This document shows, in pieces, positions 849-47,200 of a DNA stretch of 64,000 nt. Within the stretch, counting starts at the first letter, position 1; the number at the start of each line of letters is the position of its first letter. A program made the position numbers and the translations under genes. Origin of the DNA: Beroe forskalii (lineage: Eukaryota; Ctenophora; Nuda; Beroida; Beroidae); NCBI GenBank assembly GCA_011033025.1, contig WFMF01000020.1, positions 806,001 through 870,000 on the forward strand, written 5' to 3'. Under the pieces are notes generated by a model. That model was not told the origin of the DNA, searched no databases, and was given only the letters and a program-made list of their open reading frames with translations.

Positions 849-1015
849 AGCAAATCCTTTGCTAATAGCTATAATTGTGCGTACGAAAAATATGGAAATT
901 TTAACATTATTAGAACTTCCAATCGTCGTACCGCATGTTAATAATATATAAAAAGGATTTAAAAACCCCAATGTTTTGTAAAAACGGGCCAGCATGAAAT
1001 GGCCTGGGTACAAAA
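849..1015. other. Flank of the 52-bp array
   Basis: The array ends in GAGCAAATCC and CTAATAGCTATAATTGTGCG. This flank resembles the flank at 41527-41575 (GCTAATAGCTATTGTGCGTA) and, in corrupted form, 4085-4205. It places the left end of the window in another copy of the locus seen at 40-41.6 kb. Confidence 0.6.
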
Positions 1016-2532
1016 GGGGGGAAATTGGGAAAAAATTGTACCGGGGGGAAAAAAAAAAATTAAAAAAATTTCAATGGGGACCAAAATTAAATTTTTCCAA
1101 AAGAATAAAAATTAAGAGAAAAGGGAAAAGAGCAAAAAAAAAATTTTGGGGGGCCCCCAAGTAGGGCCAAAGGCTGGGTCAATGGGGATTTTGGGGTTCG
1201 TGTGGGCATTTGGTTAAACGTTACGTCGGGAAGCTTGGGGGCGGTTCCCCCACCGGGGGCCCAAAGGCCCCCCCAAAATTTGCGGGGAATTTAAAAAATT
1301 TTTTCCCCGGAGAAAGGGGAGGACTTTTTGGGGAATCCAAGGGTCAAAAATTTTTTGAAGGCCCCCCTTGGCCCGGTTAAAGGGGGGATTGTTTAGGCAA
1401 AAAATTTAAGAAAAAACTTTTTCCCCTTTAAAAAGGTTTTAAGGGTTTTTTAAAATCATGGTTTTTTAAAAAATTATAAAATTTTGGGAAATACTTTTGT
1501 AAACAAAAAACCCTTTTTCCCCGCACCCCGAACTTTCAAAAAGGGAAAAAATTTAATTTTTTTGCCTTTGGCTTAAATTTAGAATAAAACCCCCCCCAAA
1601 CCTTATAAATTTCGGAGGGTGAGTTTAAATGGGAAATGAAAATAAAATTTAATTTAAGGGGAAAAAATTTGGCATTTTTAAACCCCCGGGGTTTTTCCCC
1701 CCAAAAAAAGGGGGGGTTTTTTGAAAACCCCAATAAAAATTTTGGGTTTTGCCCCAAATTTTTTAAAAACGGTGAATTAAAACCCCAAAAAAATTTTTTA
1801 AATTTCTTATTTTCAGGGGTTTTAAAGTTTTTTCAAAAACCCCCCCCAATTCCAAACAGGGGGTCCCCTGTTTTGGTCCAAAAGGGGAACGGGTTTTTTA
1901 AAAATTTTAAAAACGTAAAAAAAAAGGGGTTTTGAAAAATTAATTTTGGAAAAAGTTAAATTTGGTTTCCGTTTCCCCCCTTAATGAATAATTAGGGGAC
2001 CCCAAAAAAACTCATGGCCCAAAAATTAAAAAAGGGAAAAAAAAAAAAAATTTGGGAAAAAAAAAAAAAAAAATTTTTTTAAAAAATTTCTAACAAAAAA
2101 CTTTCCCGGCCAACCAAACCCAAAACACAACACAAAATTTTCCCAAAAATCTCCCCCCCAAAGGGGCCCAGTTTAGGAAAGTCTGACCCGGCTCACACAG
2201 ACTCTTCCTCCTGGTCTTTTTTTTCTTGGTAGGGAAACCGGCGGAGGTTTATTTCTTTTAACCCTTTGGGGGGCCCAACCCCTAAACCCCCAAAAAGGGA
2301 ACCCCTTGCCATTTTTAATTCATCGGGGGGTTTTTGAGGGGGTCCTCCCTGTTTTTTAAAAAAGATTAAACTCTTTCCAAAAATCACAGAGACATAAGGG
2401 ATTAGAACACAACCCACAGGGGCCCGGCAGGCCCCGTCCACTAATATTTTTTGCCATTTTTTTTTAAAACCCAAAAATTTGTCACACTGAAATTTAACAA
2501 ACCCAAATTTTGGGGCACTTACTATAAAGTAT

Positions 2533-2664
2533 TTGTCACACTGACAAACCAACCCTTTTATCCCAAAAGGACTTTTCTCCCATGGGGATGTACCGACTGT
2601 TTGTAAGTGTGTTTCAGTCTCCTACCCTTCCCGTATTGCGTATTTGTTCTTTGTGACGGAGGGG
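2533..2664 (-). pseudogene. Remnant of the zinc-finger exon corresponding to 40232-40405
   Basis: It aligns colinearly with the exon at 40232-40405: CTTACTATAAAGTATTTGTC at the donor side, GTAAGTGTGTTTCAGTC inside, and TTGTTCTTTGTGACGGAGGG beside the acceptor array. The frame is broken by many indels. Because the surrounding sequence is poor, it may be an intact exon read badly rather than a real pseudogene. Confidence 0.55.
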
Positions 2665-4085
2665 CCCGGGGGGGGAAATAATTTGGGAAAAATTCAAAAA
2701 GAGGGGGACCGGGGGTGAAAGGGGGAATAATTTTGGGAAAATTTAACAAAAGGAGGGAAACCGGGGGTGGAAGGAGGGAAAAAATTAAAAACTAACTAGA
2801 GGAGGACCGGGGTGGGAAAGGGGGAAAAATTGGTTTTTAAAAAGAGGAGGAGGGGGGGGGGGCTGGGGGAAGGAAAGGGGGGAAAATTAAAAAATTTAAC
2901 AAGAGGAGGGGCCGGGGCGGGGGTTTTGGGGGGGAGGAAAAATAATTGAAAAAATTCTAAAGAGGGGGACCGGGGGGGAGGGGAATAATTGGAAAAATTC
3001 TAACAAAAGGAGGGAGGGGGGCTGGAAGGAGGGAAAAAAGGGGAAATTTAACGAGGAGGACGGCTGGAAGGAGGGAAAAATGGGAAAAATTCTAAAAAAG
3101 GAGGGGGGGCTGGAAGGAGGAAAAAAGGGGAAATTTTAACAAAGGAGGGGCCGCTGGAGGAGGGAAAAATGGTACAACAAGAGAGGGAGGGGGCGGAAGG
3201 AGGGGAAAATTTGGGAAAATTTCTAACAAAAGGAGGACCGGGAGGGAGAAAAAATTTGGGAAAACAACAAAAGGGGGACCGGGGGTGGAAGGAGGAAAAA
3301 GTTTTAAAAAGAGGAGGGAGGCTGGAAGGAGAAATATGAAAATTTTAAAAAGAGGGAGGGGGGGCTGAAGGAGAAAATGGAAATATTCTAACAAAAGGGG
3401 GAGAAGGGGGAAGGGGAAATAATGGGAAAATTCAAAAAGAGGAGGGAAGGGTGGGGAGGAAAAATTAAATTCTAAAAGAGGAGGGGGCTGGAAGGGGGGA
3501 AAATTTGGGAAAAATTCTAAAAGAGGGGGGACCGGGGGCTGGAAAAGGGGGAAATAATTGAAATTAACAAAAGGAGGACCGGGGGGGGGCCCGAAGGAAA
3601 GGGGAGAAATAATTGGAAATTTCAAAAAAAGGAGGGCAGGGTTTGGGAAAGGGGAAATAATTTTTAACAAGGGAGGGCAAGGGGGGGGAGGGGAAAAATG
3701 AAAAATTTTAACAAGAGGAGGGGCGCTGAAGGAGGGGGAAAAAATTAAATATTCCAAAAAATAAGAGGAAAGCCCGGGGGGCCGGAAGGAGAAAAAATTT
3801 GGTTTCTAACAGGGGGGGAGGGGGGTGGGGGGAGGAAAATAATTGAAATTCTAAAAAGAGGGGGAGGGGCAAAAAGGGGGAAAAATTTTGGGTTTCTAAC
3901 AAGAGGGGGGACCGGAAAAAGGGGGGAGGAAATAAGGGGAAATTTTAACAAGAGGGGGGAGTGGGGGCCTGGGGGAGGAAATAGTTGGAAATATTTTTAA
4001 CAAGGGAGGGGACCGGGGCTGGGAAAGGAAATTTGGAAATTTAAAAAGGGGAGGCCCGGGGGCCTTTGGAAGGGAAAAAAATTAA
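2665..4085 (-). repeat. Corrupted 52-bp acceptor-type satellite array
   Basis: GGAGG, CTGGAAGGAGG and TCTAACAAGAGG words recur at about 50-bp spacing, with G and A runs of variable length. It lies on the acceptor side of the exon remnant at 2533-2664, exactly as the clean array lies beside the exon at 40232-40405. Confidence 0.7.
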
Positions 4086-5296
4086 AATTTTAACAAAATT
4101 TTTTGGAAATTTTGTTTTTTATAAAAAGCGTCCCCAAAAAAAATATAAATTTTTAATATTAGAATTTTCAATAAATTTTTTCCTTTAAATATAAAAAAGG
4201 ATTTGCCCCATGGAGAAAATTTAAAAAAATTAACAAAACCAAATACGGGCAACTTTGTCCCAAAGAGATGATATTTCCACCTTAACCTTTCACAAAGGAA
4301 ACTTTTGGTTTGAGCCCCATTTTGGGGGGGGTAAAAACCAAAACCAAATTAATAATATAATTTTTGAACCCTGTTTTTTTTTTGGTCAACGGCTTTGGGA
4401 ACCCCTTTTACATTTTTTCGGGCCTGGGAACCAAAATTTGCCCCTTTTTCGTTAATGGTGTTTTAAAGTTTTTTAACTTTTAAAGGATCAAATTTTTTTG
4501 ATGCTTAAAAAGATTAAACGATCAAATTTCAAAGGGTTAGAAATTTTGGGGCCCAAGGGGGCATTCTTTTAATTAAATTAAGAGCACTAATTATTCTGTT
4601 TTCCCCGCCAAAATTTTAAATTAAATTTGACTTCCCCAAAAAAATCAAGAAAAAAGGGAATTTGAAAACCCAAAAGGGGTTCCAATTGTTGGGGTTATTT
4701 GCCAGGCCATAAAGTGTTCAAATTAGTGTTCCCAAAGTTGTCAGAATTTGTTTTTTAAATGTTGATTTTTTTTAAATTTTAAAGTTCATGTTTTCCCTTG
4801 AGGCTTTAAAAAAAGGAAAATTTTAAAGTTTAGGAAAGTAGGGATTAATACCTTTTTAAACGGTAAGTTCAAATGAAAAAAAATTTCAAAACGATTTTAA
4901 AAAGTTAAACGCCAAAATTTAAGAGGGTTCATTAGTTTCGGAACATTTATTAAACGGGGGAAAAAAAAAAATTTTAACAAAAAAATAACAAAACCCATTC
5001 TTTTAAATTGTTTAAAACTTTTTGGCCGCGTTTTAAAAAGGGAATTTCAAGCCCATGTTTGAAAAAATGGCCAAAATCAATGTTTTTATTTTGCCTTAAA
5101 ACCACACCAAAAGGGTAAAGGGTTTAAATAAAAATTAAAAAACCCCAAAACTTTTTTTTTTGCCCCCTTTTTTTTTGGGGAAATTTTTGGGTTTTAAAAA
5201 TTATCCCCCAAGGGTTTTGCTAGTTTTTTAAAAAATTTAAATGACAATTTTCGGGATACTAAAACCCAAGGTAATCAAAAAAGCCCCCAAATTTGT

Positions 5297-5371
5297 TCAA
5301 TATTTCCCCATTCGTCACAAATCCCCAATCTCTTTGGGGAAAATCATCCCCCCTGCTTTTTCAACCCAGAC
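5297..5371 (-). pseudogene. Remnant of zinc-finger exon corresponding to 41765-41847
   Basis: The stretch containing CCATTCGTCACAAATCC and TCAACCCAGACCGAATTGAT aligns with the exon and acceptor at 41765-41860. Several codons are scrambled. It should be exon 15 of copy A, the exon that follows 5792-5882 in the transcript. It is unreadable as given, probably because of poor consensus quality. Confidence 0.55.
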
Positions 5372-5791
5372 CGAATTGATTTGGGTCCAAGTTAAAAAAT
5401 GGCCCGACAGAGGACATGATCAAAAGGGTCAGTCAGGGGGTTTAATTTGCCTTTTGGTCGGTCCCCCAATGACCTGCCCGGGCATGGGAAAAGGGAGAAA
5501 AAATTTTTTTATGGTTTTTTGGTTGAAAAAGATTTGGGGGTTCGATACCCATGAAATATTTCCCCCCCCTTCTTTAGGGAAAGCAATAAAGCTGAACCTG
5601 TAGAGAGAGTGGGAGATGAATAATATCATGAACATTTCTACTACTAGAGGGCCCAGGCGGCGCCCTGGAGAGGAAACTACTGGCCGAGGCAAGCGCTTTC
5701 TAACTCCCAGGCACCCGGATGGGACGAGAGTCCCGTTCCTCCCCGGTTGCCTCCCTGCCGGGACAGGAACATTGAACCCTATTTAACCTAC

Positions 5792-5882: not shown

Positions 5883-8800
5883 CTGGAAATGACGTCATCA
5901 AGGGGTGGGTTGTAAGGGGGGGGGGGGGGGGGTGGGTTGTTGCTAAAAAACATAAATAAACCTAACTCAAGGTCCTGGTTATCTGGAAGTGACGTCATAA
6001 AGGGGTGGGTTATTGCCAAAAAACCAAAAACCTAACCCAAGGTCTTGGTTATTTGGGCAACAGCCCCTTATCTAGGGATGAAGAGGGCAATGGATGATTT
6101 AAAACCGCAAGCGGTTTTCATCGCAACTCCATCGCTTCTTATTAATGGACAAAACGGAGGAGATTTACACCGAATTAAAAGTCGTCACCTTCGGAGAACT
6201 TTAAAACTGAACAGATCTTCACCAAATTAAAAGGAGGAACTGGGCTCTTTTAAATTTATTCAGAACGAACAGATTAACATCACACCGAATTAAAAGAACT
6301 TGAAGTGAAGTACTGAAGTACTGAAGTAAAGTTAAAGGACGAGTAAAGCGAAATTTAAGGTATATTAAAAAATTCATATTATGATAGGTATCATAATTAA
6401 AAGCACTTTAGTCAAAGTCCGATGTTTCTATTCACTTCCCTACCGCACGCTATAGCTAAATCAAAGAGCAATTCTAGGCGCAAAAATATGATGCAGTATG
6501 GTCCCCAGTATCAAATTACACCCTGAGTTCACTATGTAAACACAGTATATATTGCACTGTTATTGACGGTTTTGATTGATTCTTTCGCCTCGATTATTAA
6601 TTAGATAGATTTTTTGGTTTCTTTTATTGACTCCAGAAAATTGAGAATTCCACTAGACGAAACAAAACGGTGTTTAACCACTCATATGGGATCGATAATT
6701 ATACCAAAACGCAAGATAAATAACATACAAAGTACATAACATGCAAGGTCGCGTGGAAGGAAAGGGACCAGATTTCGACATCAAGTGCATGTTATGTATG
6801 ATAAATATGGAAGGGAATATCGTCTTGTGGGTGTGGTAGAATCTTCGTTTTAACGATTAGATTAGAGAATTGCCCTAGATTCTGTGTACAACGTCTCAGA
6901 ACTATATTTGAACAAAATTTCTTCGCTTTACTCGTCCTTTAAGGAAATTGAGCAGAAAGTGGGTACCTTCAAAGAACTTGTCGCACTCCGGACAGAAGCT
7001 GTCTATGTAGCAGTTGTGTACTTCGTATCTGTGTCTGTCCATGGTAGCCCGCTGTAACAGAGGAAACTTTTAACCAAAAAACATAGATCAAAATTGCGTG
7101 TTCAGAAGGCATCAAAGATTGCTGCTTATTACAATTATGGTATGTTAACAGACTTTCTCTGCTGCCCGACCTATTGGCTATTTTCAAACGCTCATAGCAG
7201 CTAAAATAATTAGAGTAGGATGGTGGAACAAAGTTCATTCCACGCCCTAAATTCTATAGAATTAGCATTTGGGATAAATGTTATATTTGGGATTAACCCT
7301 TTCAATGTACCTGCATGAAGACTTGCTTACAGATGTTACACTGCCACTCTGCAGCACTGCCGTGTTCCTGCTTGCTGTGCTGCCGCAGTTTCTGAGGTGA
7401 GGAATATGAGCAAGTTATTTAGGTACCGCAGATTCTGAGGTGAGGAATATGAGTGAGTTATATAGGTACCACAGATTCTGAGATGGGAAACGGAATATGA
7501 GCAAGTTATTTAGGTACCACAGATTCTGAGGTGAGGAATATGAGCAAGTTATTAAGGTACCACAGATTCTGAGGTGAGGAATATGAGCGAGTTATTAAGG
7601 TACCACAGATTCTGAGATGGGAAACGGAGTATGAGCTAGTTATTTAGGTATCACAGATTCTGAGATGAGAAATGGAATAAGGGAGTTATTTAGGTACCAC
7701 AGATTCTGAGATAACAAATGGGAATTAGCCATTGCAGTTATTTATCGCAGATTCTGAGATTACAAATGGGCATTAGCCATTGCAGTTATTTATCGCAGTT
7801 CTGAGATGACAAATGGGAATTAGCCATTGTAGATATTTATCGCAGATTCTGAGATGACAAATGGGAATAAGCCATTGTAGTTATTCATCGCAGTTTCTGA
7901 GATGACAAATGGACACGTTCAACAAAAACATGTCTGAAATTCTCTTTCTGGTTTTGCACATTTTTGGGATGTGAAAGAAAATTTTAAAAACTGTAAGGGA
8001 AGTTCATATGAAGAAGAGATGTCCAAACTTTCTGATACTGAAATCACGAATAGTCTATCTCCATCAGATCATGAGATATGATGTTTTAAAGTGAAATGAT
8101 ACAAAAATCACATCCAAGACATTTTCAGATTGATACTGCATTTCATAAAAATGCAGCTGAGCATCGAAAATGACCAATATTTTAGGAGTGCATTGATGTA
8201 TTGTTTACATACTTGTTCCAATGAAAATTTTCACTTTGGGGTCAAAGATGATACAGTAGTCACACATTTTCTTTGAAAATTTGCCCATTTCTATGTCGTG
8301 ATTTAAGTATCTTCAATCTATCTTTTCTAAGGTTTCTCAGTTTAATCACATAGTTTCATGCATCTGCTGATAGCTAAACATCACGAGAATCACTTTAACT
8401 CGAAAAATTGATACAAAGGTCACATCTTTGTAACTGATGGAATAAAATGATAGAAGGAAACAAATGTGTGATTTTAAGTATCATAGAAGGTATTTTTATG
8501 GAAAATGATATGATTTTTCACATCTTATAAGTTAACCTATCAATTAAAATGAACTTTCCCTCAATCTAAGGTCAAAAAAGATATAAAAATCACTCATGAT
8601 TTTCTCCATTGTAGTGAAACCATTTTATTGTGATCTCAGTATCACCAATGACATTTTAGGTTAATATTCTGTATATTTTGGAAAGTAAACTCCTTCCAGA
8701 AACTGTACTTGCCGTTTGATATGAGATAAATAGTCACTTTATGATACACTGATCACATTATTTTGCTACAAGTGATAATAGTTGGCCAAAGAATCCCACA

Positions 8801-11800
8801 GTATTGGTATTGTAAGGCATGTGATGAATATATCCATTTACAGATCTGTGATTTTTGATCCAGATTCAGCTATAATATAGATGTAACTTTCACTAGAAAC
8901 TAAAAACTCACGAAACTATGTCCAATATGGATACAGAAATCACATATAATACAGAAATTTGTTCCACATGAATATGAGATCTGGTGTTTATTATGTGATA
9001 TTGGTATCAAAATTGGCCACAATTTAATTTTGAGCCCCCAATATCATAGCATAGCAATATTCTCAACAATTTATGGTGTTTTGATAACCATAAACTGTAT
9101 GGTTTCACTGTAATGGCCTCTTGATTTAAGGAATACAGGTACATAAAACCTCTATGTGACTTTAGTATTATTTCATGGCCATTTGCCTGTGACTCGCCAA
9201 CCATATTTCGAAAACCCATTCACTATGGATACACAAATGGCTACACAATGTTCACATGGGTGATATATGCAAATTATTCAGTCTAGGGCCAAAAAATGAT
9301 ACTACAGTGATTCTGGTATCATAAATGGCCCTGTAAATATTATTTTTTATCAGAAGAAATTGGAATGTGATAAATAGTCAATTATTGACCTTGTATCAAA
9401 TTTTGACACCTCTAGGATTCAAGGCAAATGATCTATGAACAGTTTTGTGAAATTTGTCACATTTTTGAAAATGAAATTTTGAATTTCAGACATGTTTTTG
9501 TTGAACGTGTCCAAATGGGAATAAGCCATTGTAGTTATTTATCGCAGTTTCTGAGATGAAAAATGGGAATAAGCCATTGTAGTTATTTATCGCAGAAATA
9601 GAATAAGGGAGTTATTGAACATTCATGATTTATTTAGTTATTATTTCAACTTTCAGAACATTTTATCAATTCCTCTTATGGCTATTTCCTTAGAGGCACG
9701 AAGTGACTCTGAAAATTTGAACCACCATTTGCCATTATTGATTTCCACGGGGGGTTTATGTGGGACAATGTTGCCCCCCTAAAATGTATCAGACTCCCCA
9801 CCTTGAGATCATCGAAGAACTGGTCGCACCCCCTACACATGAAGTCGCACTCAATGTTGTGTTCCTCGTACTTGTGTCGGAACCTGATGTTTCAGAGTGT
9901 AAATTCGTTTGGAAAACACAATATTTTGAATTGGCTTTTAATGGTATATCGTAACTTGAAAACTTTTTGGCTTTCAGGTATTATCTCTAGTGATTGTGAC
10001 TTAAGTTTAGATTTAGGTCACTCTTAAATGGCTAAAATATTTCCCTCTCATATATTTATTTGACAAAGTCTAAGCGTGTAAGAAATGTTTTAATCTATCT
10101 CCTGATTTTAAAGTTTATCGTATCATTTAACTTGCTCCCTAAGATATCTACTATTAATTTACATGTTTTGATTTATCTATTATTTATTTACATGTGGATG
10201 TATCTATTATCTATTTACATGTGGATGTATCTATTATTTATTTACATGTGTATCCTGTCCGTGAAGGTCTCCTCACACACAACACACGGGTACTCCATCC
10301 GACGACTGTGGGACTGCTCCACGTGACGACGCAGCGAGTGGTGGTCTGAGGAAAACATGGTTTACAGTAGAATAACATGGTCATTTTACTTTTAGAATGT
10401 AGATCAGGTGTAATCTATAACACAAGTTGTAAAAAGTGAGTGGTGGTCTGGGGAAAACATGGTAAAATGATGAAGAATCGTGAAAACAAGGTCAAATGTT
10501 TCGTCGTGAAAGTTCTGAGGGTAAAATAAAATGGTAGAATTCAGCAATTGTGACGTGACGAAGCAGGAAGAATCTAGAGACAAATCGCATAATTCGGTGA
10601 CTCACCAGGGAACCAATAGAGCTACAGATCGCATACGTTTATACGTCGTGCGCGAGAAATAGGCGGGTAGGATGACGTCATTGAGTTGATGACGTTGAAC
10701 CGCCTATTCCTCATTTATTGACTCACCAGGGAACTTCATGCCGCACTTATCGTGGGTGCAGGTGTTGAAACTGACACCGTGCATCTTCTGCTGATGTCTT
10801 TTAAGCAGGTAGGGCTGGGTGAAGGACTCACCGCACTCCTCACAACTAGAGAAAGAAATTATTATTAAGACTTAAAGATAACAAGATACTATCAACTATG
10901 ATACTCAGTAAACGACCAATTTCAGAATTTTGGCCGAAGCCGAGACCGAGTTTAAAAATGGTCGAGTTTGGCCGAGGCCTCGGTCGTTTACTGATGATAC
11001 TCTCCGTCCTCACACGGCTCGAACGTGCTTTCAAAGGCATTAATGAGAAGTCACAATTACAGATAATTTCCTGGTTAGAATTTGAGAAAAAGAACCTATT
11101 GTGAATGAAACTCTTGGAAAATGGTTACAGAGAAGTGTATGACTCCATTCAGATTTGGGTATGGTGAAGAGGCGATCTCAACTGAGAGGAATAAAATCTC
11201 AGGCTGTATTGGCAGCCAGAGATTCACACAAGGTTCACACCTGTTATCAGTAGGATCCTTGTTGGACGATCTCTCATCCACTGAACCGGACACAGACACT
11301 CTGTCAGAAACATCTGTAAGGAAATTGTGAATTATATTCAAACTCCAAAGATCAAAAGATTTACAAATACTCGAAGATAGATTTAGTAAAATTCCATGGT
11401 GAAAATCGTGAAAATGCGGAAACACTGGGAAGTGTTTTTGGAAGGTTTTTGAAAAAAGCTTGCAAAATGGCACTAAAATAAAATATGGCATGTAGAACAT
11501 GGCATGTAAAAGATGCCTTAACTTATCCATATCTCACCATAGCCCGAGTAGCCTCCCCTCCGGTGCATAGCCTTGACATGGCGAGCTAGTCTGTTAGGGT
11601 CAGTGAAGGACTTGTCACACTCCTTACACTTAGTATCCACATTAAGGGGCGGAGTGTGCAGGAACATGTGCTTGTTGAGAGTGGAGATGGAAGAGAAACT
11701 CTTCTTACAGATCTGGAGGAGACAAGGTATTCATGACGATACTGTGTTATTCTTATCAATAATAATACCATATTCCCATGATAGTTTTAATATAATTTCT

Positions 11801-31354: not shown

Positions 31355-32102
31355 TTCTGTCGTTTAGAAGTCCTACCTCTTAGGGTCGGAGATGAAGAGG
31401 CCACATATCTCACATAACCACCGTTACATCCCAATTTATATTGATGAATGGTAACCGGTCGTTTAGTTGTCCTACCTCTTAGGTAAGTGGCCAGGTAGCG
31501 CAGTGGTTAGGGCGTCTGACTTTCAATCGCGAGGTTGGTGGTTCGATTCCCGGCCTTGCCTACCGTGCTAAGGGTGAGAACTCTCACCTAAGCAGCCACA
31601 CGGTTCACTCAGCCGAGCGTACAGGAAACTGTGCGGGAGGGTTAAATGAGGAGCTGCCCATTGCAGCGAAGTCTCGGGCGACGAAAGTATGGATTACACT
31701 TCCTTAACCGTCACTGGCTTGATTACTTGAATCCTTCGATTCCTGTCATTGGCTGTTACAGCTGTTGGATTAGAAGTAAAACCTTCGAAAAAAAGGGTCG
31801 GAGATGAAGAGGCCACATATCTCACATATGGTATCGTTGAGAAGTCCTACCTCTTAGGGTCGGAGATGAAGAGGCCACATATCTCACATATGGTATCGTT
31901 GAGAATTCCTACCTCTTAGGGTCGGAGATGAAGAGGCCACATATCTCACATATGGTATCGTTGAGAAGTCCTACCTCTTAGGGTCGGAGATGAAGAGGCC
32001 ACATATCTCACATATGGTATCGTTTAGAAGTCCTACCTCTTAGGGTCGGAGATGAAGAGGCCACATATCTCACATATGGTACCTATCGTTTAAAAGTCCT
32101 AC
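31355..32102 (-). repeat. 63-bp donor-type tandem array next to exon 32103-32209
   Basis: Each unit read on the minus strand carries ATGTGAGATATGTGGCC, CTTCATCTCCGACC and CTAAGAG/GTAGGA, so it repeats the last 45 or so coding bases and the donor of the exon at 32103-32209. About six units are seen besides the exon itself. A SINE sits inside one of them (31487-31794). Confidence 0.85.
31487..31794 (+). mobile_element. tRNA-derived SINE
   Basis: The 5' end is tRNA-like: GGTAGCGCAGTGGTTAGGGC (A box) and GGTTCGATTCCCGG (B box) about 35 bp apart. A unique body of about 220 bp follows and it ends AAAAAAA. It is inserted in the 63-bp donor-type array between CCTCTTAG and GGTCGGAG. The tRNA parent is not certain. 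Confidence 0.8.
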
Positions 32103-32209
32103 CTCTTAGGGTCGGAGATGAAGAGGCCACATATCTCACATATGGTATCTACCACTTCGTTATGGACGTTCCTACGGTGGTACTCCAGTGCCGAGAGTAA
32201 CTCGAATAC
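32103..32209 (-). CDS. ZF gene exon 28 (last seen)
   Basis: VFELLSALEYHRRNVH completes the finger opened in exon 27, then CEICGLFISDPK opens another. Donor AG/GTAGGA. No exon for the missing His half was found to the left. Confidence 0.8.
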
Positions 32210-35200
32210 CTGAAATAATGGTTTGATAGTTCCTACGGTGGTACGTTCCTACGGTGGTACTCCAGTGCCGAGAGTAACTCGAACACCTGAAATCATGGTT
32301 TGATGATGGGGACGGGCCAACATGGTACTCCAGCGCCGAGAGTAACTCGAATACCTGAAATCATGGTTTGATGATGCGGATGGGCAACATGTTTTATGTA
32401 TTTAATCGCTTCAGACAGTACCAGCAGTAGTCAGAAAACAAGAATCAGTCAGAATGACTAAATTCTGACCGAGTCCTCGGTACTTCGGTATAACACTTAA
32501 TATAATCCTCGGTAAATACCGACCGACTAAATACCGAGCAATTACTGCGGGAGACTCCCGGGAGCCCTCCGGGAGTAACCCGGGAGTCCTCCGGGAGTCC
32601 CCTGGGAGTATCCCGGGAGAACCACGGGAGGACTCAGTCCTGGTCAATCATTGCCCATACCTCCCCACAAGGCTCGCAGCTGTACATCTGATCGGAGCTA
32701 TTATGCATGGTCTTGTGGTGTCGCTCCTTGCCCCTCAACTCCTCAAAGTACTTATCACACGGTTCACAGTACGTGTCAACCCGTCTCAGGTCCTTCTCTC
32801 GGAGATGCTTGTCGAGGGCGGACCGTTTGTCGAATACCAGCTCACAGCGAGCACAGAAGAATGGGATCTTGTGGACTTCTCGCATGTGTTTCAGCAGACG
32901 TTTCGGGGTCTGGGGAGAAGGTGTTGTGATATTTGATGGAGATATATCGGGCGGAAATAGCGAAAATTCGAAGCACGAATAAGAATGAATAAGAGTATTA
33001 TGGAACCAGTCGCCACAACCTTGGCCAATCAGCGCGCATTTTAACGGCCAACCCGCGTGCTGATTGGTCAATGTCATTGTCCATTGTCCAATCAAAGCGT
33101 GGGTCACCCATTGGTGTCACACATTGGTGTCACCTGTTGGTGTCACCTGTTGGTGTCACCTGTTGGTGTCACCTGAACATGAACTGGTGTCACCTGTTGG
33201 TGGGTGGTACACTTGAAGCAGTAGGTATCCCATTCCCTGTCGTGGGTAAGTCTGATGTGGTTCATGTATACTGTTTTACTGGGAAACTCCCCGATATTAC
33301 ACTCCAGACACCTGGATAAAGTAAAAAAATAATAAATCCAAAACTCGTGAAGGAAAACAATGATGAAGCAGCAAAATAAACCCATTTTTAAATTAAATTT
33401 AAACCCCCATTGCATTTGCCATTTTTCGATATCCACCGGGCCCGGGGCTGTTTTGATTATTCCCATTATTATGGAGGTGGTTGCCGGTTAGACCCCTGTA
33501 AAAGGATGTCACCGGGATAAGTGGCTGGCCCGAAGGCGCCAAGGAGCTTTCTTTTACCTGTAGATGATAAAGGAGCACCCTTTCGTTTTACCTGTAGATG
33601 ATAAAGTCGTCCTCATCATCAGGTCTGTCGTCCAACTCATCCATATCTTCTTCTTTATCTGAAGATGGTTTTACCGATCAGTTGGGGGTCAGTAGGGGGT
33701 CAGTAGGGGTCACCAAGGGGTCACCAAGGGGACAGTAGGGGGACATAAGGGGTCAGTGGGGAGTCAGCAGGGGTCAGTAGGGGGGTCAACAGAGGGTCAA
33801 TACAGGTTCACCAGGGGGTCAGTAGGGGGACATAAGGGAGTCAGCAGGGGTCAGTAGGGGGTCAGCAGAGGGTCAATAGGGGTTCACCAGGGGGTCAGTA
33901 GGGGGACATAAGGGGTCAGTGGGGAGTCAGCAGGGGTCAGTAGGGGGCATAGCTGCCGACTTTTGAAAATTCTTTGGGAGGGCACTTTTTTACCCCATTT
34001 TGGAGGGCAAATACCGTTGAATGGAGGGCAAATTTCGTAGGTATATTCTTGGAATTTATATGGTGACTTTTTTTTTTTTTTTTTTTTTTTTGGACGACAC
34101 CTTAAAAGTGCAATCCGAGATAGTGCTTATTGGGTAAATTTTCAGATTTGTAGGTAAATTTTCAGGACCTTAGGTAAATTTTTAAAATTTATTCGAGATA
34201 GTGCTTGATAGGTAAATTTTCAAAATTGATCCGAGATAGTGCTTAGTAGGTAGATTTTCAGGATTTGGCGACCTTTTTTTAGGGAACGACTAAAAATGTG
34301 ATCCGAGATAGTGCTTATTAGGTAAATTTTCAGAATTCTGAGTAAATTTTCAGATTTGCTCTCCAAAAAGGTGGGCAAGGTCCAAAAGGAGGGTAAATGG
34401 AGGGCATGGGAGGGCGCCCTCCCAAAAGGAGGGCAGTTCGGCAGCTATGGTAGGGGGGTCAGCAGAGGGTCAGTGGGGGTCAATAGGGGTTCACCAGGGG
34501 GTCAGTAGGGGGACATAAGGGGTCAGTGGGGCGTCAGACGGAGGTCAGCAAGGGGCCAGCATGGGTCTGCAGGGTGTCAGCAGGGGGTTTTTAGGGGGTA
34601 AGCAGGAGAGTAACACGGCTCTGACGTAACCAGACAAACCTGCAGCATGTTTGACTAACCTGCTGCATGTATGGCCACTCTGTGCCTGTACAAAGCTTTC
34701 CTGTTCCCGAAGTACAAGTCACACTTGTCACAATACTGACGACGTGCCTCGTCGTGTGCATCGTGCAGATGTCGGAGTAGGTCAGCTAGGGGAAAAACAG
34801 TAAAATTCATTGATTTTCAAAAGCAGCAATGGAGCAGTAAAAAGTACGTTTTTAATAAAGGTAGAGAATTAATTTCTTTAATAACCATCAGCACTTTCGT
34901 CTTTCAGTATGACGTGATTGTCTCAAAAGTACCTCTGTAAAGTCTGATGATACGGAAAAAAGTTACAGCTCGTTGTGGTTATAATCGTGTTGTGGAACTA
35001 GGAAACTACAAAGTTTTACTGAGTAATTACAGAGTTTTACTACAAAGTTACAGACGCATTGTACGACATTTTCCGGAGGAACTTACCAGCGTTTTTGAAG
35101 GTGCTTGTGCACTTGTCACAGTTTATCAGTTTCTCTGGCTTTACGGAGTGGTTTTCACGGTTATGTTTGCTGAAGTCTTTCTGATCTGAGAGGGAAGGAG

Positions 35201-38200
35201 TTGGCAAAAATAATACGGAATGAAGGTATTAACATATTTTATATTGCATAATTTCATAACACTTCCAGATTGCCAAAGCTATTTAAGTATTTAGAGTGGC
35301 CATTTGGGGGCCGAGTTCGCTAATTTTGATACTTATAGATGTAAGAAGGTCTCAATTCTAAATTTCAGATTCAGTGAAGCAAGCCCATCCGGGATGTTAA
35401 ATACGTGAAAAAATCGCCAAAAAGTACGACGTATTGGCCTTTGAAGAAAAATACGCGTATTTTTCTCACAATACGTGACTTGAAAATAACAACACGGATT
35501 CTGAATAGGGGTTGTTAAATACGTGAAAAAGTACGCGCGCATGCGCTACCGAATATAGTAAAACGATTGTATCGTTAACATTTCGAGTGCGCGCGCGACC
35601 AATATATTCAGACAATGCCGTTTAATCGAAGTTTGAGCAAAATTTCAAAATTGTAGCCGAAAAAGTACGGCAGTTTCTGCCAAAAAATACGTATTGTACT
35701 TTTTGACGTATTTTTAAAAAATACGTATTTAACAACCTTGAAGCCCATTGCCCAAGCATCTTCAAAAGGGAAGTATCTGGCGAGTATTTAGCATAAAATG
35801 AATTAAAAAAGACACACCCGGTTCAGGGCAAACTCTCTGACCCATTACTCACTTGTGAAGAAGAGGTCACACTCGACACACATGGGGTTTACCGGAACCC
35901 CGTGACCATGGTACAGGTGTTTGGAGAGGGACAGCTTGTTCATGAAGGTCTCATCGCAGTCATCGTACGAACAGGTGTGCTTGGTTTGGGACTCGTGGAC
36001 CCGACGTATGTGACGCTGCACCAACGCTGGACCTGACCAAGGAGCATGTCATTAGCAGGGGGGAAGGGAGCAGCCTCCAACAAACGCCCCATTAAAACAT
36101 ATTGGTGGGACTGGCAAACAAAGTTTCCAAAAACTATTTCTCGGGCCCTGAGACTCGCATTTAACTAAATTTTTTACTATTTCAGCCTATTCTACCGTTA
36201 GGTTCACCGTCAGTGCTCACCCTCGGGCCCTAAGACCCGCAGACCGCCGCGGGTGGCTTGCCAGCCCCCTGATTCAAAGTGACTCCGACTTCTTCATATC
36301 ATACCTTCGAAGACTTTGTCACAGTACTGGCAGATAGTGTTTATCTTTTCGTAATGAATGTCTCTTCTGTGTTTGTCCAGCTCCACTTTCTTGTCAAACT
36401 GAGGGGGAAGTTTTAATTAACTTAACTTATTCAATCCAATTTGAGAACTGATGAAGATAATTGTATGAGCCTTGTAACATCGAAAAGTTTAAAGACTTTC
36501 TTAAAACGCGGTTCAATTTTGTAGCAAAAAGTACATTCGAATCAAAATTTCTATGAACTACGGTTCAAAAATACATCAATGCGACTCATATAATATCAAA
36601 CAGCCCGATCCAAAAACTGAACGAGGAAAATTTTCAAGACAAATGTTTAAAAGCGAAATATCAAACAACTACGTAATTGTTTGATATTTGATATTTTGAT
36701 GTAAAATTTCTAACTTCATATTTTGTCGTCTCGAGAGGAAATTTTATTTCTCTGACTTAAATTCGCTTCAATTTCATTAAATCAAACTGTAAGTAGGTTT
36801 TTCAATATAATTTTGTGACGCCAGGTAAATTATTGCTACCACTTGCTGACAGCTTAACTATTTAACCTAAATGATCATTAAAAATCATATTATAAATTTA
36901 TCAGCTTATCATGGACGTGCCCGTTTTCTTGAAACCTTGGTTAACACTTTTAATTTTTTAAATAATATTGCACGAACCATCAGTCCATCACAAGAAAAAT
37001 TAAATGCTCGCTCCTAAACTTGTGTAACCCACGTAACCTAAATTTGAGGTGTTACTGTGTTAAATGGGTTGGACGGTTGTCGAAACTTAAAAGTCGTAAA
37101 ATGGCTAGCTTGATAGGTGATTGAGTTTACGAAGAAAATTGATTTCTAGGGAAATGGATATAATGTTATATACAGTAAGATTAAATAAGATTCCAAGAGC
37201 GGTGCAGTTTCACAAGAGGATCGTGCAATGTGCTTTATGAACTTGCTTCTCAGTTTCCGTGAACGTAAAAATCTTGCCAAGTCACGCATTAAACGCCGCG
37301 CACGAGGAATAGGCGGGTAGGATGACGTCATTATCATAGCGTAACGTGGTGAGTTGATGACGTTGAGCCGCCTTTTTCTCGTGCGCGGCGGTTAATACCA
37401 AAATTATTCATTTTCCTTTTAGAAAGCTAACGCCCAAGTCGTGGGAGGGCTGTGGGATTACACGCCCCTCTAGTTTTCAAAAGACCCATGTAGAAAAATA
37501 GTAGAGGGAGAAAATTAAGGCTATATGAAAAAGGAAATTTTCTTATATAAATTTTGGCCCTCTTAGTTTGAAAAGGCCCTCTTAGAAAAAAATCTAGGAG
37601 GGGGGGCCTTGGCCCCCACTAGCCCGAAACAGTGTGTTATGGCATGGACGAACCTGCTCGTCACATTTAGGACACGTCCAGTTGATATCCACCCCGTGCT
37701 TAACGAACATGTGCTGCTTGAACTCCGTAGTAGCTGAGGAAAATGGTGTCAACAAGCATGGTGTCAACAAGTATGGTGTCAACAAGTATGGTGTCAACAA
37801 GTAGGGTGTCAACAAGTATGGTGTCAACAAGTATGGTGTCAACAAGTATGGTGTCAACGAGTATGGTGTCAACAAGTTAGGTGTCAACAAGTATGGTACT
37901 ATGGTGTCAACAAGGGGTATGAAAATGGTGTCAACAAATGTGGTGGCTGCTTTCAATAGTGTTGTGTCAACAACAGTGCCAGCTGATGACAATGGTGTCA
38001 ACATCAGGTAAAAAATATGGTGTGAAAAATTGTGGTGTCAACAATAGATTCGGTGACCGGTGTCAAAAGACGTAGTGTCAGCTGATAAAAATTGTGTCAA
38101 GATGGGGAGCATAATATATATGAATTTTGTGCCAAAAGAAGTATATAATGCCAAAAGAAGTACATAATGTCAAAAGAAGTACATTTCAAAAGAAGTAAAT

Positions 38201-41200
38201 GTTGTCAGCACTCACACTCGAAGTAGAGCGCACAGTGCTCGCAATGCTCCACCAGCTCATTATGGATCTTGTGTTGGTGTGCGTGTAGCCGGGACCGCTG
38301 GTTAAAGAGCAGGTTACACGGCTCACACGACCAGATCTTGTGCGCAGCTTGCGTGTCGAGCGTCTCACCGCCCTCACCGTGGGCGCGCATCAAGTGCCGC
38401 TCCAGCATCACTTTGTCCTGGAGTGAGTAAGGAATTTGGAGGGAATAAACTTCATTTACATTTCATGTCACTGAAGAACGTTAATAAGTTATAAGAGACC
38501 CAAGAGGGATGATTAATAAAATACTTTTCTGTATTTTTTAACCAGCCAGATAGCCAGGTTTACAAATACATTGTAAAAACACAGCGTCCTGTCCTTGGAA
38601 GAAGGAGTACAATTCATGATAGATGATGTTAATGACAACACATCGGACATGGACCATGGTGTCATTGACAACACATGGTGTCAATTGACAACGCATTACC
38701 TCAAAGAACTTATCACAGGAGATGCACATAGTGTCAATGCTTTCCTCGTGTTCCTCGTGTCTGTGTCTGTCAACTAGAACTGGGTAAGAAAACCCGGCCC
38801 CACACTCGTTACATGTGAATATCGGTTTCTTGGAGGTGTGACTGATCTGCGAAGAAAGAGAATGATAATCAATTAATCATCAAATTATAGGCAGTACTGT
38901 CATAATTGGTCTAACTATGGCAAGACCAGTAAAATCCGGCTCAGATTAGCTCAAAATGTGGAAAATGTGGAAGTTTTTCATGGATCTAGCGAATTACCTC
39001 AACTATGTCCAAACTATGCCCAGCGACTTGACATTGGACTAAATTCCCGAACATATATTAAAATCTGAGTGCCATGAACTCGTCAATGAAAGCTTCCTTT
39101 GACATGGTGTCAATGTTTGAAATGTCGCCAATGTTTGAATTTGCTTACTTTAACATGGCGTTGCAGAGCACGTTGGTCTTCAAAGAACCTCTCACATTCC
39201 ATACACATAGTGTCAACCTCATCCTCATGAACATGGTACCTGTGAGGAACAAGTTTAAAACGTTTATTAATAATAATAAAGCACACATTTATTACCCGCT
39301 TAACCATAATTAAGAAAATTAATTCTCTTGGCAACTAAGCGGTACGGTTCAAGAACCTTGTCACATCCTGTCTTGATCATTTCATGAAACATGTGATCAC
39401 AAATGAACATTATGCTAACATTAAACTTAACGATACGATAAAGTTTAAAATAAGAAGTTTTCGAAAATCATGATTATCGTCGTTAGCTGAAGATGGTATC
39501 TGAACGTTATCCGTTTCAAGACCAATCATATTAAAACCTCCAAAAATTAAACCCTTATTGCCATTTTTCGATATCCACCGGGGGTTTATTAGGGTTGCCC
39601 CCTTCCGTTTTCACAAACAAGATGGGTATCTCCTTATCACAAACATCACAGTAGACATCACGGGCATAGGTCAGAACAGCAACGCCACGAGGGCGCCATG
39701 GCAGTGCCACAGTAATGCCAAGTCTTACTGATCAAAGTATTTGTCACACGCTTTAAATAAGATATCGCTTACTATCGAAGTATTTGTAACCCACTCTAAA
39801 TTAGACATAACTCTAAATTAGACATCACTTACTATCGAAGTATTTGTCACCCACTCTAAATTAGACATAACTCTAAATTAGACATCACTTACTATCGAAG
39901 TATTTGTAACCCACTCTAAATTATACATAACTCTAAATTAAACATCACTTACTATCGAAGTATTTGTAACCCACTCTAAATTAGACATAACTATAAATTA
40001 AACATCACTTACTATCGAAGTATTTGTAACCCACTCTAAATTAGACATCACTCTAAATTAGACATCACTTACTATCGAAGTATTTGTAACCCACTCTAAA
40101 TTAGACATAACTATAAATTAAACATCACTTACAATCGAAGTATTTGTAACCCACTCTAAATTAGACATAACTCTAAATTAGACATCACTATCGAAGTATT
40201 TGTAACCCACTCTAAATTAGACATAACTTACTATCGAAGTATTTGTCACACTCCGTACAATAGACATCGCTCTCATCCAAGTGAACTTTGCTCCTATGGT
40301 GATCGTATTCTGATCTGTTGGTGTAAGTGTAGTTGCAGTCCCTACACGACCATTCGCTGTATTTGCTGTGCATTTGTTCCTTGTGTCGACGGAGGGAGCG
40401 GGGCGCTGGAAGGAGGAAATATAATTGGAAATATTCTAACAAATACTTTGCTAATTATAGCTATTGTTCCTTGTGTCGACGGAGGGAGCGGGGCGCTGGA
40501 AGGAGGAAATAATTGGAAATATTCTAACAAGAGGAGGGAGCGGGGCGCTGGAAGGAGGAAATAATTGGAAATATTCTAACAAGAGGAGGGAGCGGGGCGC
40601 TGGAAGGAGGAAATAATTGGAAATATTCTAACAAGAGGAGGGACCGGGGCGCTGGAAGGAGGAAATAATTGGAAATATTCTAACAAGAGGAGGGAGCGGG
40701 GCGCTGGAAGGAGGAAATATAATTGGATATTCTAACAAGAGGAGGGAGCGGGCGCTGGAAGGAGGAAATAATTGGAAATATTCTAACTAGAGGAGGGAGC
40801 GGGGCGCTGGAAGGAGGAAATAATTGGAAATATTCTAACAAGAGGAGGGAGCGGGGCGCTGGAAGGAGGAAATAATTGGAAATATTCTAACAAGAGGAGG
40901 GACCGGGGCGCTGGAAGGAGGAAATAATTGGAAATATTCTAACAAGAGGAGGGACCAGGGCGCTGGAAGGAGGAAATAATTGGAAATATTCTAACAAGAG
41001 GAGGGAGCGAGGCGCTGGAGGAGGAGGAAATAATTGGAAAAATTCTAACAAGAGGAGGGACCGGGGCGCTGGAAGGAGGAAATATAATTGGAAATATTCT
41101 AACAAGAGGAGGGAGCGGGGCGCTGGAAGGAGGAAATAATTGGAAATATTCTAACAAGAGGAGGGAGCGGGGCGCTGGAAGGAGGAGGAAATAATTGGAA

Positions 41201-44200
41201 ATATTCTAACAAGAGGAGGGAGCGGGGCGCTGGAAGGAGGAAATAATTGGAAATATTCTAACAAGAGGAGGGAGCGGGGCGCTGGAAGGAGGAAATAATT
41301 GGAAATATTCTAACAAGAGAAGGGAGCGGGGCGCTGGAAGGAGGAAATAATTGGAAATATTCTAACAAGAGGAGGGAGCGGGGCGCTGGAGGAGGAGGAA
41401 ATAATTGGAAATATTCTAACAAGAGGAGGGACCGGGGTGCTGGAGGAGGAGGAAATAATTGGAAATTCTAACAAGAGGAGGGACCGGGGCGCTGGAAGGA
41501 GGAAATAATTGGAAATATTCTAAAGTTCTAACAAGAGCAAAAACAAAATGCTAATAGCTATTGTGCGTACGATACGATGATATTCAACTATTCAATACCT
41601 AGCTCATTAGACTTTTTAATAAAGTGATACGCGGGGTTTGAGACCCATGTTGTGGGGGTAACACCCACTTAAAACCAGAATTATTCAATATAATGACAAC
41701 TTCTGGATACTACAGGCAAGCTAAAACGCTGCCAGGTAAGCTAAAACGCCGCAAATATGTTCACCTTCAAAGTATTTGCCGCATTCGTCACACATACAGT
41801 CCGCAATCTCGTTGTGTATCATCACCCTGTGCTTGTCTAACCCAGACCTGAATTGAGTTGATGTGTTGATCTCAGTTAAGAGTAGGCACGACACGATGTG
41901 ACATGATCAATAACGGTTAGGTGACCCAGTCACGTGGTAACTGCCTGCCACAAGGTCTGTCACGTGACCACCACGTGACCGCGTGACAGGCATGGGCAAC
42001 GGAGAGAAAAAAATTCTCTATATGGCATATTTTGGTGTAAAATGACTTGGAATCGATATCACGATGAAATATTTCCGTCCCCCTTCTAGTAGTGGAAAGC
42101 AATAAAGCTGAACCTGTGGAGAGAACGGGAGATGAATAATATCATGAACATAGAAACCTACCGTGCGTTGAAGCTAGCGGTACATTTGTTACACTGCCAG
42201 TCCGTTATTTTCCCGTGCACCTCCTTGTTATGCCGGATAATACTCCGAGGATCTGCAAATGACGTCATCAAGGGGTGGGTTGATGCAGAAAAAGGACAAA
42301 AACCTAACCCAAGGTCTTGGTTATTTGGGCTACAGCCCCCCTTCCAACCCAAGGTCTTGGTTGGTGGGCTACAGCCCCCTCCCCTTAACCCAAGGTCTTG
42401 GTTATTTGGGCTACAGCCCCCCTCCCAACCCAAGGTCTTGGTTAATTGGGCTACTGCCCCCCTCCCAACCCAAGGTCTTGGTTGGTGGGCTACAGCCCCC
42501 TCCCCTTAACCCAAGGTCTTGGTTAATTGGGCTACAGCCCCCCTCCCAACCCAAGGTCTTGGTTGGTGGGCTACAGCTTCCTTATCTAGGGATGAAGAGG
42601 GCAATGGATGATTTAAAACCGCAAGCGGTTTTCATCGCAACTCCGTCCCTTCTTATTAATGGACAAAACGGAGGAGATTTACACCGAATTAAAAGTCGGC
42701 ACCTTCAAAGAACTTTAAAACTGAACAGATCTACACCAAATTAAAAGGAGGAAGTGGGCACCTTTAAATTTACTCAAAATGAACAGATTCATATCACACC
42801 GAATTAAAAGAACTTGAAGTGAAGTATACTGAAGTAAAGTAAATTAAAAGAAAGAAGTTGGCACCTTCAAAGAACTTGTCGCACTCCGGACAGAAGCTGT
42901 CTATGTAGCAGTTGTGTACTTCGTATCTGTGTCTGTCCATGGTAGCCCGCTGTAACGGAGGAAATTATAACCGGGTTACTTTTAACTTTTTTCAGGGGCA
43001 TTGGAATCTGCAACATAACAACTTGAATAGGTATGAAAAAAAAATGTGGCACTTATAAGTAGGAGCCTTCGCTCTCCCAAAAAATCTGACACAAATGTAG
43101 TTTTAAAACTTTAATAACACTACGAAATTTTTTGCAATGTGGTTAAAAAGATAGGATGAACTTTCAATGTCACATCTGAAAGTCTGAAGAAAGGTAATGG
43201 ATTTTTTAATCAATTAAAGATTACCCTTTCAATCATGCTCGTCTAGACAGTACCTGCATGAAGACTTGCTTACAGATGTTACACTGCCACTCTGCAGCAC
43301 TGCCGTGTTCCTGCTTGCTGTGTTGCCGCAGTTTCTGAGAAAGGGAATATGAGGGAGTTATTTAGGTACCACAGTTTCTGAGGTGAGGAATATGAGGGAG
43401 TTATTTAGGTACCACAGATTCTGAGATAACAAATGGGAATTAGCCATTGTAGTTATTTAGGTACCACAGATTCTGAGATGAGAAATGGGAATTAGCCATT
43501 GGAGTTATTTATCGCAGTTTCTGAGATGACAAATGGGAATAAGCCATTGTAGTTATTTATCGCAGTTTCTGAGATGACAAATGGGAATTAGCCATTGGAG
43601 TTATTTCTCGCAGTTTCTGAGATGACAAATGGGAATAAGCCATTGTAGTTATTTATCGCAGAAATGGAATAAGGGAGTTATTGAACATTCATGATTTATT
43701 TAGTTATTCTTTCGACTTTCAGAACATTTTATCAATTCTTCTAATGGTGGTTTCGTTAGAGGCACGAAGTGTCTCTAACAATTTGAACCACCATTTGCCA
43801 TTATTGATTTCCACGGGGGGTCATCCCCCCTAAAATGTATCAGACTCCCCACCTTAAGATCATCGAAGAACTGATCGCATCCCCTACACATGAAGTCGCA
43901 CTCAATGTTATGTTCTTCGTACTTGTGCCGGAACCTGATGTTTCAAGAGTTTAAGATTCGTTTTAAAACACATTATTTCGTTTGAAAACACTACTATTTT
44001 GAATTGGCTTTTCGTAAATTGAAAACTTAACTGTCTTTCTTAAAACTTCAGGTATTATCTCTAGTGATTGTGACTCTTTATTAATCATAGTCTTTAGTTT
44101 AAACGGCTCAAATATTTCCCTCTCAGATATTTATTTGCCAATGTCTAAGCGTGTAAGAAATGTTTTAATCTATTATTTATTTACATGTGGATGTATCTAT

Positions 44201-47200
44201 TATTTATTTACATGTGTATCCTGTCCGTGAAGGTCTCCTCACACACAACACACGGGTACTCCATCCGACGACTGTGGGACTGCTCCACGTGACGACGGAG
44301 TGAGTGGTGGTCTGGGGAAAACATGTCAATTATGGGGGCAAATGATTCACAGTAAAATAAACTTATAAAATGGTCAAATATTTAGGAATCGAGAAAATAT
44401 GGGCAAATGTAAATTTCCTACAGTAAAATAACATGGTCAAATGAACTTTAGGAATCGTGAAAAATGGGCAAATAAATGTGGGGGGGGGGCCAACCCCCCA
44501 AAACCCCCCAAAATTAAGCCCCCTATTGGAAATTTGTTATATCCACCAGGGGGTTAAATTAAACCCCAAAATTAAACCCCCATCGACAGCAAAAAATTAA
44601 ACCCCCCAAAATAAAACCCCTATCGACAGCAAAAAATTATTCTAGTATGATTCAAAAGCACCAAATGAAGAAACAAAATGGTACCATTTGAAAAAGTTGC
44701 CAAAAATCGCGAATAAAAAGGTACCATTTCGAAAAGGCGCAAAATCGGACACAAATTTGGTACCATTTCCGAAAATCACAAAAATCACGACCAAAAATGG
44801 TACCATTTTGAAATGGTGCAAAAAATCAGAAACAAAAATGGTACCATTTCGAAAGGGTGCAAAAAATCAGAATCTAAATGGTACCATTTGAAAAAGATGC
44901 TGAAAATCAGAAACAAAAATGGTACCATTTCATAAAAGTTCCAAAATTCTAAACAAAATGGTACCAAAAACCGGAAACAAAAATGGTACCATTTCTAAAA
45001 ATCGCCAAAATCAGGGGACCAAAAATGGTACCATTTTGAAAAGGTGCAAAAAATCACGACCAAAATGGTACCATTTTGAAATGGTGCAAAATCAGGAACA
45101 AAAATGGTACCATTTCGAATTGGTGCAAAAAATCAGAAACAAAATGGTACCATTTGAAAAAGATGCTGAAAATCAGAATCGAAAATGGTACCATTTCATA
45201 AAAGTTCTAAAAATCATTAACAAAAATGGTACCAAAAACCGGAAACAAAAATGGTACCATTTCTAAAAAACGCCAAAAATCACGACCAAAAATGGTACCA
45301 TTTTGAAATAGTGCAAAAAATCAGGAACAAAAATGGTACCATTTGAGAAAAAAATTCCCCTTTTTTCTCTAAGAATTAAGCCCCCTAAAACCCCCCAAAA
45401 CCCCCCAAAACCCCCCAAAATTAAACCCCCTATTGGCGATTTTTTGATATCCACCAAAATTGAGGGGGTTGGCCCCCCCCCAAATGTGCAGGAATCGTGA
45501 AAGTTCCTACAGTAAAATAAAATGGTAAAATTCAGGATCGTGAAATTTGAACTGGAAGGGGGGAGGGGTTTCAGCAGTAAGTGGGAGGACGATATCACCC
45601 TTTCTGGTCAAAAATCCCTACTACCCACCCACCAGATAGCAGAATGCCTGCGATTAGACCCACCCCTACAATTTACAGAAATCAAGCGGGCTGGTTTACT
45701 TGAATCTATGTCAGCCCCTCTTGAGTGTAATGAGCAATGCCATCCATGACACTTGCTGTTGAATACCCCCCCCCCCCTATTTTATGTCCTGTCAGGAATC
45801 AGACGTGACGAAGCAGGAAGAATCTAGAGACAAAATGCACACTTTAGAGTCACTCACCAGGGAACTTCATGCCGCACTTATCGTGGGTGCAGGTGTTGAA
45901 ACTGACACCGTGCATCTTCTGCTGATGTCTTTTAAGCAGGTAGGGCTGGGTGAAGGACTCACCGCACTCCTCACAACTAGAGAACACAGGTATTAAGGTA
46001 ACAAGATACTATCAACTATGATACTCAGTAAACGACCAAGTTCAGGATTTTGGCCGAAGCCGAGACGAGTTTACAAATGGTCGAGTTTGGCCGAGGCCTC
46101 GGTCGTTTACTGATGATACTCTCCGTCCTCACACGGCTCGAACGTGCTTTCAAAGGCATTAATGAGAAGTCACAATTACAGATAAGTTCCTGATTAGAAT
46201 TTGAGAAAAAGAACCTATTGTGAATGCAACTCTAGAAGAATGGTTATAGAGAAGTCTATGACTCCATTCAGATTTGGGGATGGTGAAGAGGTGATCTCAA
46301 ATGACTAAAATTCCAGGCTGTATTGGCAGCCTGGGATTCATTCACAAGGTTCACACCTGTTATCAGTAGGATCCTTGTTGGACGATCTCTCATCCACTGA
46401 ACCGGACACAGACACTCTGTCAGAAACATCTGTAATGGAATTTTAAATTGTAAACGCTTGAAAAACATCATTATATTCAAACTCCAAAGTCCAAAGATTT
46501 TCAAATACTTAATTTAATAAAATCCCATGTAGAAAATGGTGGAAATGTTGGAACACTGGGAAGTGTTTTTGGCAGGTTTTGCAAAATGGCACTGGAATAA
46601 ATATGGCATAGAACATCATATCTCACCATAGCCCGAGTAGCCTCCCCTCCTATGCATTGCCTTGACATGTCGAGCTAGTCTGTTAGGGTCAGTGAAGGAC
46701 TTGTCACACTCCTTACACTTAGTATCCACGTTAAGAGGCGGCGTGTGCAGGAACATGTGTTTGTTGAGAGTGGAGATGGACGAGAAACTCTTCTTACAGA
46801 TCTGGAGAAAGATCAGGGTATTTTCATCTTGGACTGACGATGCTGTGTTATTCTTATCAATAATAATAATACCATATTCCCATGATAGTTTTAATTTAAT
46901 TTCTTATAATCTCAAATATTGTTGTTTATGAATTTATAATGAATGCCTAACTTTATTTAGAGGCAAATTATCCAATGATAGATCATTGACGACCTCATGA
47001 AGATTTAAATTTTACATCTAACTATGTACTTGACAGAAGTGCTCAATGGTAGCTTTGTGGACCGTCCTAATGTGAACCAGGAGTTTCTTGTTGTCAGTGA
47101 ATGTACTGCTACACTCTGTACACTTGATGAGTCTCCGGCTGTTCCATGATCTCGTGGTTCTGGTGTTGTTCTTCATTTCCTCTTCATCAATGTAGGTCTC

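Follow-up and report, generated by a model that had tools for sequence, protein, structure and literature searches.

The window analysed here is a 64-kb stretch of the genome of the ctenophore Beroe forskalii (C248:806001-870000, C248 being contig WFMF01000020.1 of an assembly of 216 Mb in total), in which a C2H2 zinc-finger gene lies on the minus strand; it has two copies, A and B, the latter reaching past the edge of the window. Copy A occupies about 838.1-853.2 kb of C248 (window 32-47 kb) and copy B C248:798.4-818.1 kb, at a distance of 35-41 kb; the exons located number 21 in copy A and 20 in copy B, and joining exons of the gene gives a 387-aa chain with a match to PF00096 at an E value of 2.9e-38. 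One of these exons, E10, is flanked on both sides by tandem arrays of its own splice sites, and the extent of these arrays, their recurrence at other exon-intron boundaries and their probable origin are considered below. The ctenophore affiliation also shows in an HP1-like protein from the same contig, which shares 83% identity with a protein of Mnemiopsis leidyi and 94% with two ENA proteins.

The splice sites were picked by eye from AG/GT ends and reading frame and, for copies A and B, also from the agreement between the two. The exon set does not include E11, the E9 of copy B, which falls in a noisy stretch, or two further exons that probably exist, one between E2 and E3 and one between E19 and E20, so that not every boundary of the gene is covered. 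When just these two copies are compared over their 20 comparable exons, no difference in exon-intron structure is seen, and the sequences differ by 84 synonymous changes at 483 sites (0.174) and by a single nonsynonymous change at 2055 sites. Either the protein is very strongly conserved, or two haplotypes that differ greatly stand in tandem. The similarity extends beyond the gene (about 780-821 kb and 825-855 kb of C248), and A and B could be tandem genes or such haplotypes arranged one after the other. At the site that corresponds to copy A, exon E18 of copy B is preceded by AA (C248:800365-800366) and not by AG.

E10 of copy A (Table 1) has its acceptor edge at C248:846405 and, taken alone, matches PF13465 (zf-H2C2_2) with an E value of 2.9e-6, which falls under the curated cut-off; a search of window positions 37000-44500 against Rfam at gathering scores gave zero matches. 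Both arrays beside this exon are real, far beyond chance, and lie where the first-pass annotation of the window had put them. On the acceptor side Tandem Repeats Finder (TRF) reports 52 bp x 19.9 at 40481-41523 (score 1850, 94% matches), and on the donor side 60 bp x 8.0 at 39754-40228 (score 838, 94% matches). In both, the units combine a splice site with about 15 bases of coding sequence and so hold bases from either side of a real boundary; they do cross the exon-intron boundary, as had been described. Read on the minus strand, the acceptor-side unit contains, besides a pyrimidine tract and CAG, some 15 coding bases (CGCCCCGCTCCCTCC and variants), while the word ACAAATACTTCGAT marks the end of the exon on the donor side. 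The units are less regular than had been described. The word TCCAG|C occurs 21 times, as the real E10 acceptor and 20 extra ones that reach 1086 bp upstream, although the supposed 52-bp period varies from 51 to 55 bp and the nearest extra acceptor is 90 bp from the exon. Likewise, ACAAATACTTCGAT occurs nine times, as the real end of E10 and eight extra copies that reach 459 bp downstream, but only six of the supposedly uniform units are exactly 60 bp and the two nearest the exon measure 43 and 56 bp; the GTAAGT donor, thought to be present in each unit, is intact in seven of the nine copies and replaced by GTGATG and GTAAGC in the other two. Head-to-tail units of 10-100 bp with high identity place the E10 arrays among the minisatellites, and the E10 donor array and the arrays of E22 (see below) show the copy-number variation between gene copies that belongs to this class.

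The reading frame was followed through each of the extra sites. Use of any of the 20 upstream acceptors or of any of the 8 downstream donors brings a stop codon into the transcript, so that these sites do not leave the frame open in the manner of tandem alternative splice sites. The acceptor and donor directly beside the exon body are, judged from the reading frame, predicted to be the sole productive pair.

The two gene copies share the E10 acceptor array and the arrays at E4 and E6 but differ at several other boundaries. Copy B has no arrays at E22 and none at the E20 donor, and at the E10 donor it has one unit and after it the diverged copy GTGTGACAAATACTTTGG, which in copy A has its counterpart at the outer end of the array; since copy B keeps this unit and the diverged copy, the founding E10 donor duplication probably predates the split between A and B. 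Copy A, in turn, is without the duplications that copy B has at the donors of E13 and E17. Despite lacking the E10 donor array and both E22 arrays, copy B encodes the same protein in E10 and E22.

The paired arrays had been taken as peculiar to one exon, but E22 of copy A is boxed in as well (Table 1), and one-sided cases occur at the donors of E4, E19 and E20 and at the acceptor of E6 in copy A and, besides E4 and E6, at the donors of E13 and E17 in copy B. Given 3 acceptor and 5 donor hits in copy A, two boxed exons out of 21 are unremarkable, because such arrays are common (P = 0.128). Gene C, another zinc-finger gene (C248:762-768 kb), is affected at the acceptors of its exons C2, C4, C5 and C7 when five parameter settings are pooled, and five copies of the start of C5 lie upstream of that exon. 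Outside this cluster four arrays with repeated GTAAGT were inspected by eye, one of which apparently crosses an exon boundary: at locus L041, on contig C1, a 34-bp unit runs over an apparent acceptor, the exon being recognised from its open frame and being without a Pfam match. The arrays at L042 and L043 are apparently intronic; L044 (C35:245801-247800) holds a 63-bp array whose units all carry GAGAGGTAAGT, and an exon is not visible there.

Table 1. Exons, boundary-spanning arrays and related features of gene copies A and B, in window coordinates.
Feature	Copy	Position	Strand	Basis or remark
E10, C2H2 zinc-finger coding exon, 174 nt	A	40232..40405	-	Open frame, AG/GT ends, copy B protein identical
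E10 acceptor-side array of ~52-bp units that carry an acceptor of TTCCTCCTTCCAG type plus ~15 coding bases	A	40481..41534	-	TRF, word count
90-bp acceptor-side unit adjoining E10, with 32 exon bases	A	40406..40495	-	Trace of larger boundary-spanning duplication
E10 donor-side array, mostly 60-bp units with last 15 coding bases and GTAAGT-type donor	A	39754..40231	-	TRF, word count
Diverged outermost copy of E10 end (GTGTGACAAATACTTTGAT...)	A	39724..39749	-	Counterpart in copy B; probable relic of founding duplication
E22, second boxed exon	A	32103..32209	-	
68-bp acceptor-spanning duplication 5' of E22; additional acceptors lie 77 and 145 bp upstream	A	32210..32391	-	Absent in copy B
E22 donor-spanning array, 62 bp x 5.7	A	31794..32149	-	TRF; absent in copy B
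13-bp array (ACCAACAG|GTGAC) repeating donor of E20 (33194-33311)	A	33103..33193	-	Absent in copy B
20-bp donor-spanning duplication at E19 (34660-34785)	A	34633..34670	-	
43/48-bp acceptor-spanning arrays at E6 (43254-43334)	A	43329..43661	-	
27-bp donor-spanning duplication at E4 (44212-44311)	A	44185..44211	-	
E4, 27-bp donor array, 3.9 copies	B	10145..10250	-	
E6, 43/48-bp acceptor-spanning arrays	B	7386..7912	-	
Raw-read-like stretch with homopolymer noise, holding second noisy E10, its array and E9	B	870..5580		E9 by eye

Tandem repeats are abundant around these genes: those with a period of at least 10 make up 11% of a 184-kb region around the window, and in seven samples of 10 kb from contig C1 their share is 3-41%. 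For another ctenophore, tandem repeats are reported to form 13% of the genome by TRF, at a heterozygosity of 3.2% (PMC8527503). Boundaries were compared with their intron background by a word test, in which the 16 bases centred on a boundary were scored as duplicated when they recurred no more than 400 bp away, up to 2 mismatches being allowed, with intron positions serving as control. The test covered 106 boundaries in copies A and B, gene C and an STT3 gene (PF02516; in L026); it leaves out the last donors of C7 and X7, which are ends of uncertain kind, and its copy B intron control leaves out positions in and near the noisy stretch. It was preferred over a count of TRF arrays, which misses E10 of copy A with its irregular units beside the exon. 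A nearby duplicate was found for 16 of the 106 boundaries (8/42 in copy A, 6/40 in copy B, 2/11 in gene C and 0/13 in the STT3 gene), versus 24.9 expected at the intron rate and 20.4 when positions in boundary arrays are excluded from the control. Duplicated positions amount to 31% of the introns of copy A, 16% of those of copy B, 45% in gene C and 2% in the STT3 gene, whereas exon interiors are depleted (0.4-4.0% at the main setting, 0.0-4.8% over five parameter sets). With four further parameter sets, 12-18 of the 106 boundaries were hit, versus 22.7-25.3 expected from all introns and 16.3-17.3 under the stricter control. Boundaries thus behave like intron while exons are protected, and the excess of boundary-spanning repeats that the first-pass annotation had predicted for the genome did not clearly appear in the four genes tested. 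As a proxy for donors in the whole genome the word CAGGTAAGT was also tried (978 forward and 756 reverse occurrences versus 670 and 695 for the word read backwards), but it was set aside because it is weakly tied to real donors in this genome.

Several results weigh against this absence of an excess. When the range is widened to 600 bp, the 18 boundaries hit slightly exceed the 16.3 expected under the stricter control, and copy B alone gives 7/40 versus 3.6 (P = 0.062), although against all introns (6.7 expected) the same count has P = 0.51. When TRF arrays are placed at random, 4 boundaries are spanned in copy B versus 1.27 expected (P = 0.031), while copy A, with 3 versus 2.76, shows nothing of the kind (P = 0.53). 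Over the five settings pooled, 4 of the 6 acceptors of gene C are hit. Furthermore, the comparison comprises four genes only, three of which are zinc-finger genes that lie in one cluster, A and B being copies of each other.

The arrays probably arose by ordinary tandem duplication that crossed splice sites by chance, expanded later and was tolerated with the exon-proximal site intact. A short duplication with one end in the exon and the other in the intron would duplicate a few coding bases along with the splice site, and once two copies are present, unequal exchange or slippage could expand them into an array. Selection would purge repeats within coding exons and tolerate those that cross a boundary, because the site beside the intact exon body survives and is the sole one yielding the protein. 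At E10, two independent arrays may have met by coincidence of one common process, and the 60-bp donor expansion would be specific to copy A or have been lost in copy B after a founding duplication that probably preceded their split. By eye, the exon and the upstream intron share about 4 bp (~ACAA) at the junction of the 90-bp acceptor unit, the founding donor duplication perhaps shares three bases, GAG, and at the 52-bp junction the shared stretch is about 1 bp, which would fit tandem duplication of the microhomology type followed by expansion. Because only the exon-proximal pair gives the protein, which hardly differs between the copies, the arrays are best read as tolerated passengers.

It seems unlikely, by comparison, that a process acting at the splice junctions themselves, such as R-loop formation, template switching from RNA or slippage at the boundary, preferentially makes tandem copies of splice sites, as the first-pass annotation had suggested. 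Duplications at several exons in three zinc-finger genes and at one apparent exon elsewhere are what such a process would leave, and the two low probabilities for copy B (0.031 in the array test and 0.062 at one setting of the word test) point in the same direction. However, none of the five parameter sets gives an excess over all introns, the array test of copy A is unremarkable, and none of the 13 boundaries of the STT3 gene is hit where only 2% of the intron is duplicated; boundaries, therefore, appear to track the local repeat load. We consider it quite unlikely that in ctenophores, whose introns are rich in tandem repeats, splice junctions are hot spots of duplication linked to transcription or splicing, and arrays of splice sites hence a standing source of new introns and exons; an excess might then show beyond the four genes.

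That the arrays offer functional competing splice sites which regulate the gene, e.g., via unproductive transcripts, is very unlikely. The intact GTAAGT in most donor copies and the 21 acceptors found by a single word would suit such a role, but the many useful alternatives that had been envisaged do not materialise when a stop lies behind every alternative E10 site, which would leave unproductive splicing as the possible form of control, and copy B encodes the same protein without the E10 donor array and both E22 arrays.

An assembly artefact, in which mis-joined long reads inflated the copy numbers or created the arrays, is similarly improbable, for although copy B contains a raw-read-like stretch in which E10 recurs in noisy form together with its array and E9, and A and B could be two haplotypes placed in tandem, the arrays of copy A read cleanly, those at the E10 acceptor, E4 and E6 are present in both copies and similar duplications occur elsewhere. 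The stretch in question has inflated homopolymers inside an otherwise clean contig and is probably unpolished or mis-joined filling. The length of the acceptor array in copy B is unreliable because this stretch holds the second E10 and its array; in copy A, where the arrays are clean, the exact unit counts rest on the assembly.

Boundary-spanning repeats as such have already been published. De Grassi and Ciccarelli (2009; PMC2812944) described internal tandem repeats where exons and introns meet in human paralogs, reporting 162 alignments with boundary repeats and, after inspection, 27 intron modifications. The ctenophore arrays are like these in being of the minisatellite type, in their position at exon-intron boundaries and in varying in number between recent gene copies. 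The human repeats, as described there, alter transcripts or make new introns (PMC2812944), whereas here the protein is almost unchanged and both sides of an exon are affected. In a potato RdRp gene an intron was gained by a tandem duplication that, according to that paper, crosses an acceptor (PMC4974935); that duplication made a new intron, whereas here there are many copies, none of which indicates one. In the Rogers model introns are gained via duplication of AGGT-containing exon sequence (PMC4974935, PMC2891723), and tandem duplication supplies splice signals there as it does in the ctenophore arrays; the model as outlined in these reports needs exonic AGGT copies that turn into intron ends, however, whereas here existing boundaries were multiplied. 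On this evidence the arrays give no indication of a new mechanism.

An exon flanked by both acceptor and donor arrays was not recognised among the open-access titles and beginnings of abstracts listed, which does not prove that the literature has none. Human introns arising in tandem arrays are reportedly the subject of a study by Zhuo et al. from 2007, to go by its title.

Since copies A and B differ in which boundaries bear arrays while their proteins are almost the same, they form a natural experiment on the harmless multiplication of splice sites. Such arrays also supply material from which introns may slide or be gained and exons be extended, and they call for caution in gene prediction in repeat-rich genomes.

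Two further kinds of repeats were observed. In L026, the locus of the STT3 gene, a tandem repeat at 4479-5051 can be read without a stop in several frames of both strands (CAAQTCFAAQT..., CGANVLCGANV...). At 741-746, 782-789 and 875-884 kb of C248 there are dispersed repeats in both orientations, most of them 90-98% identical, which possibly represent a recent mobile element family.

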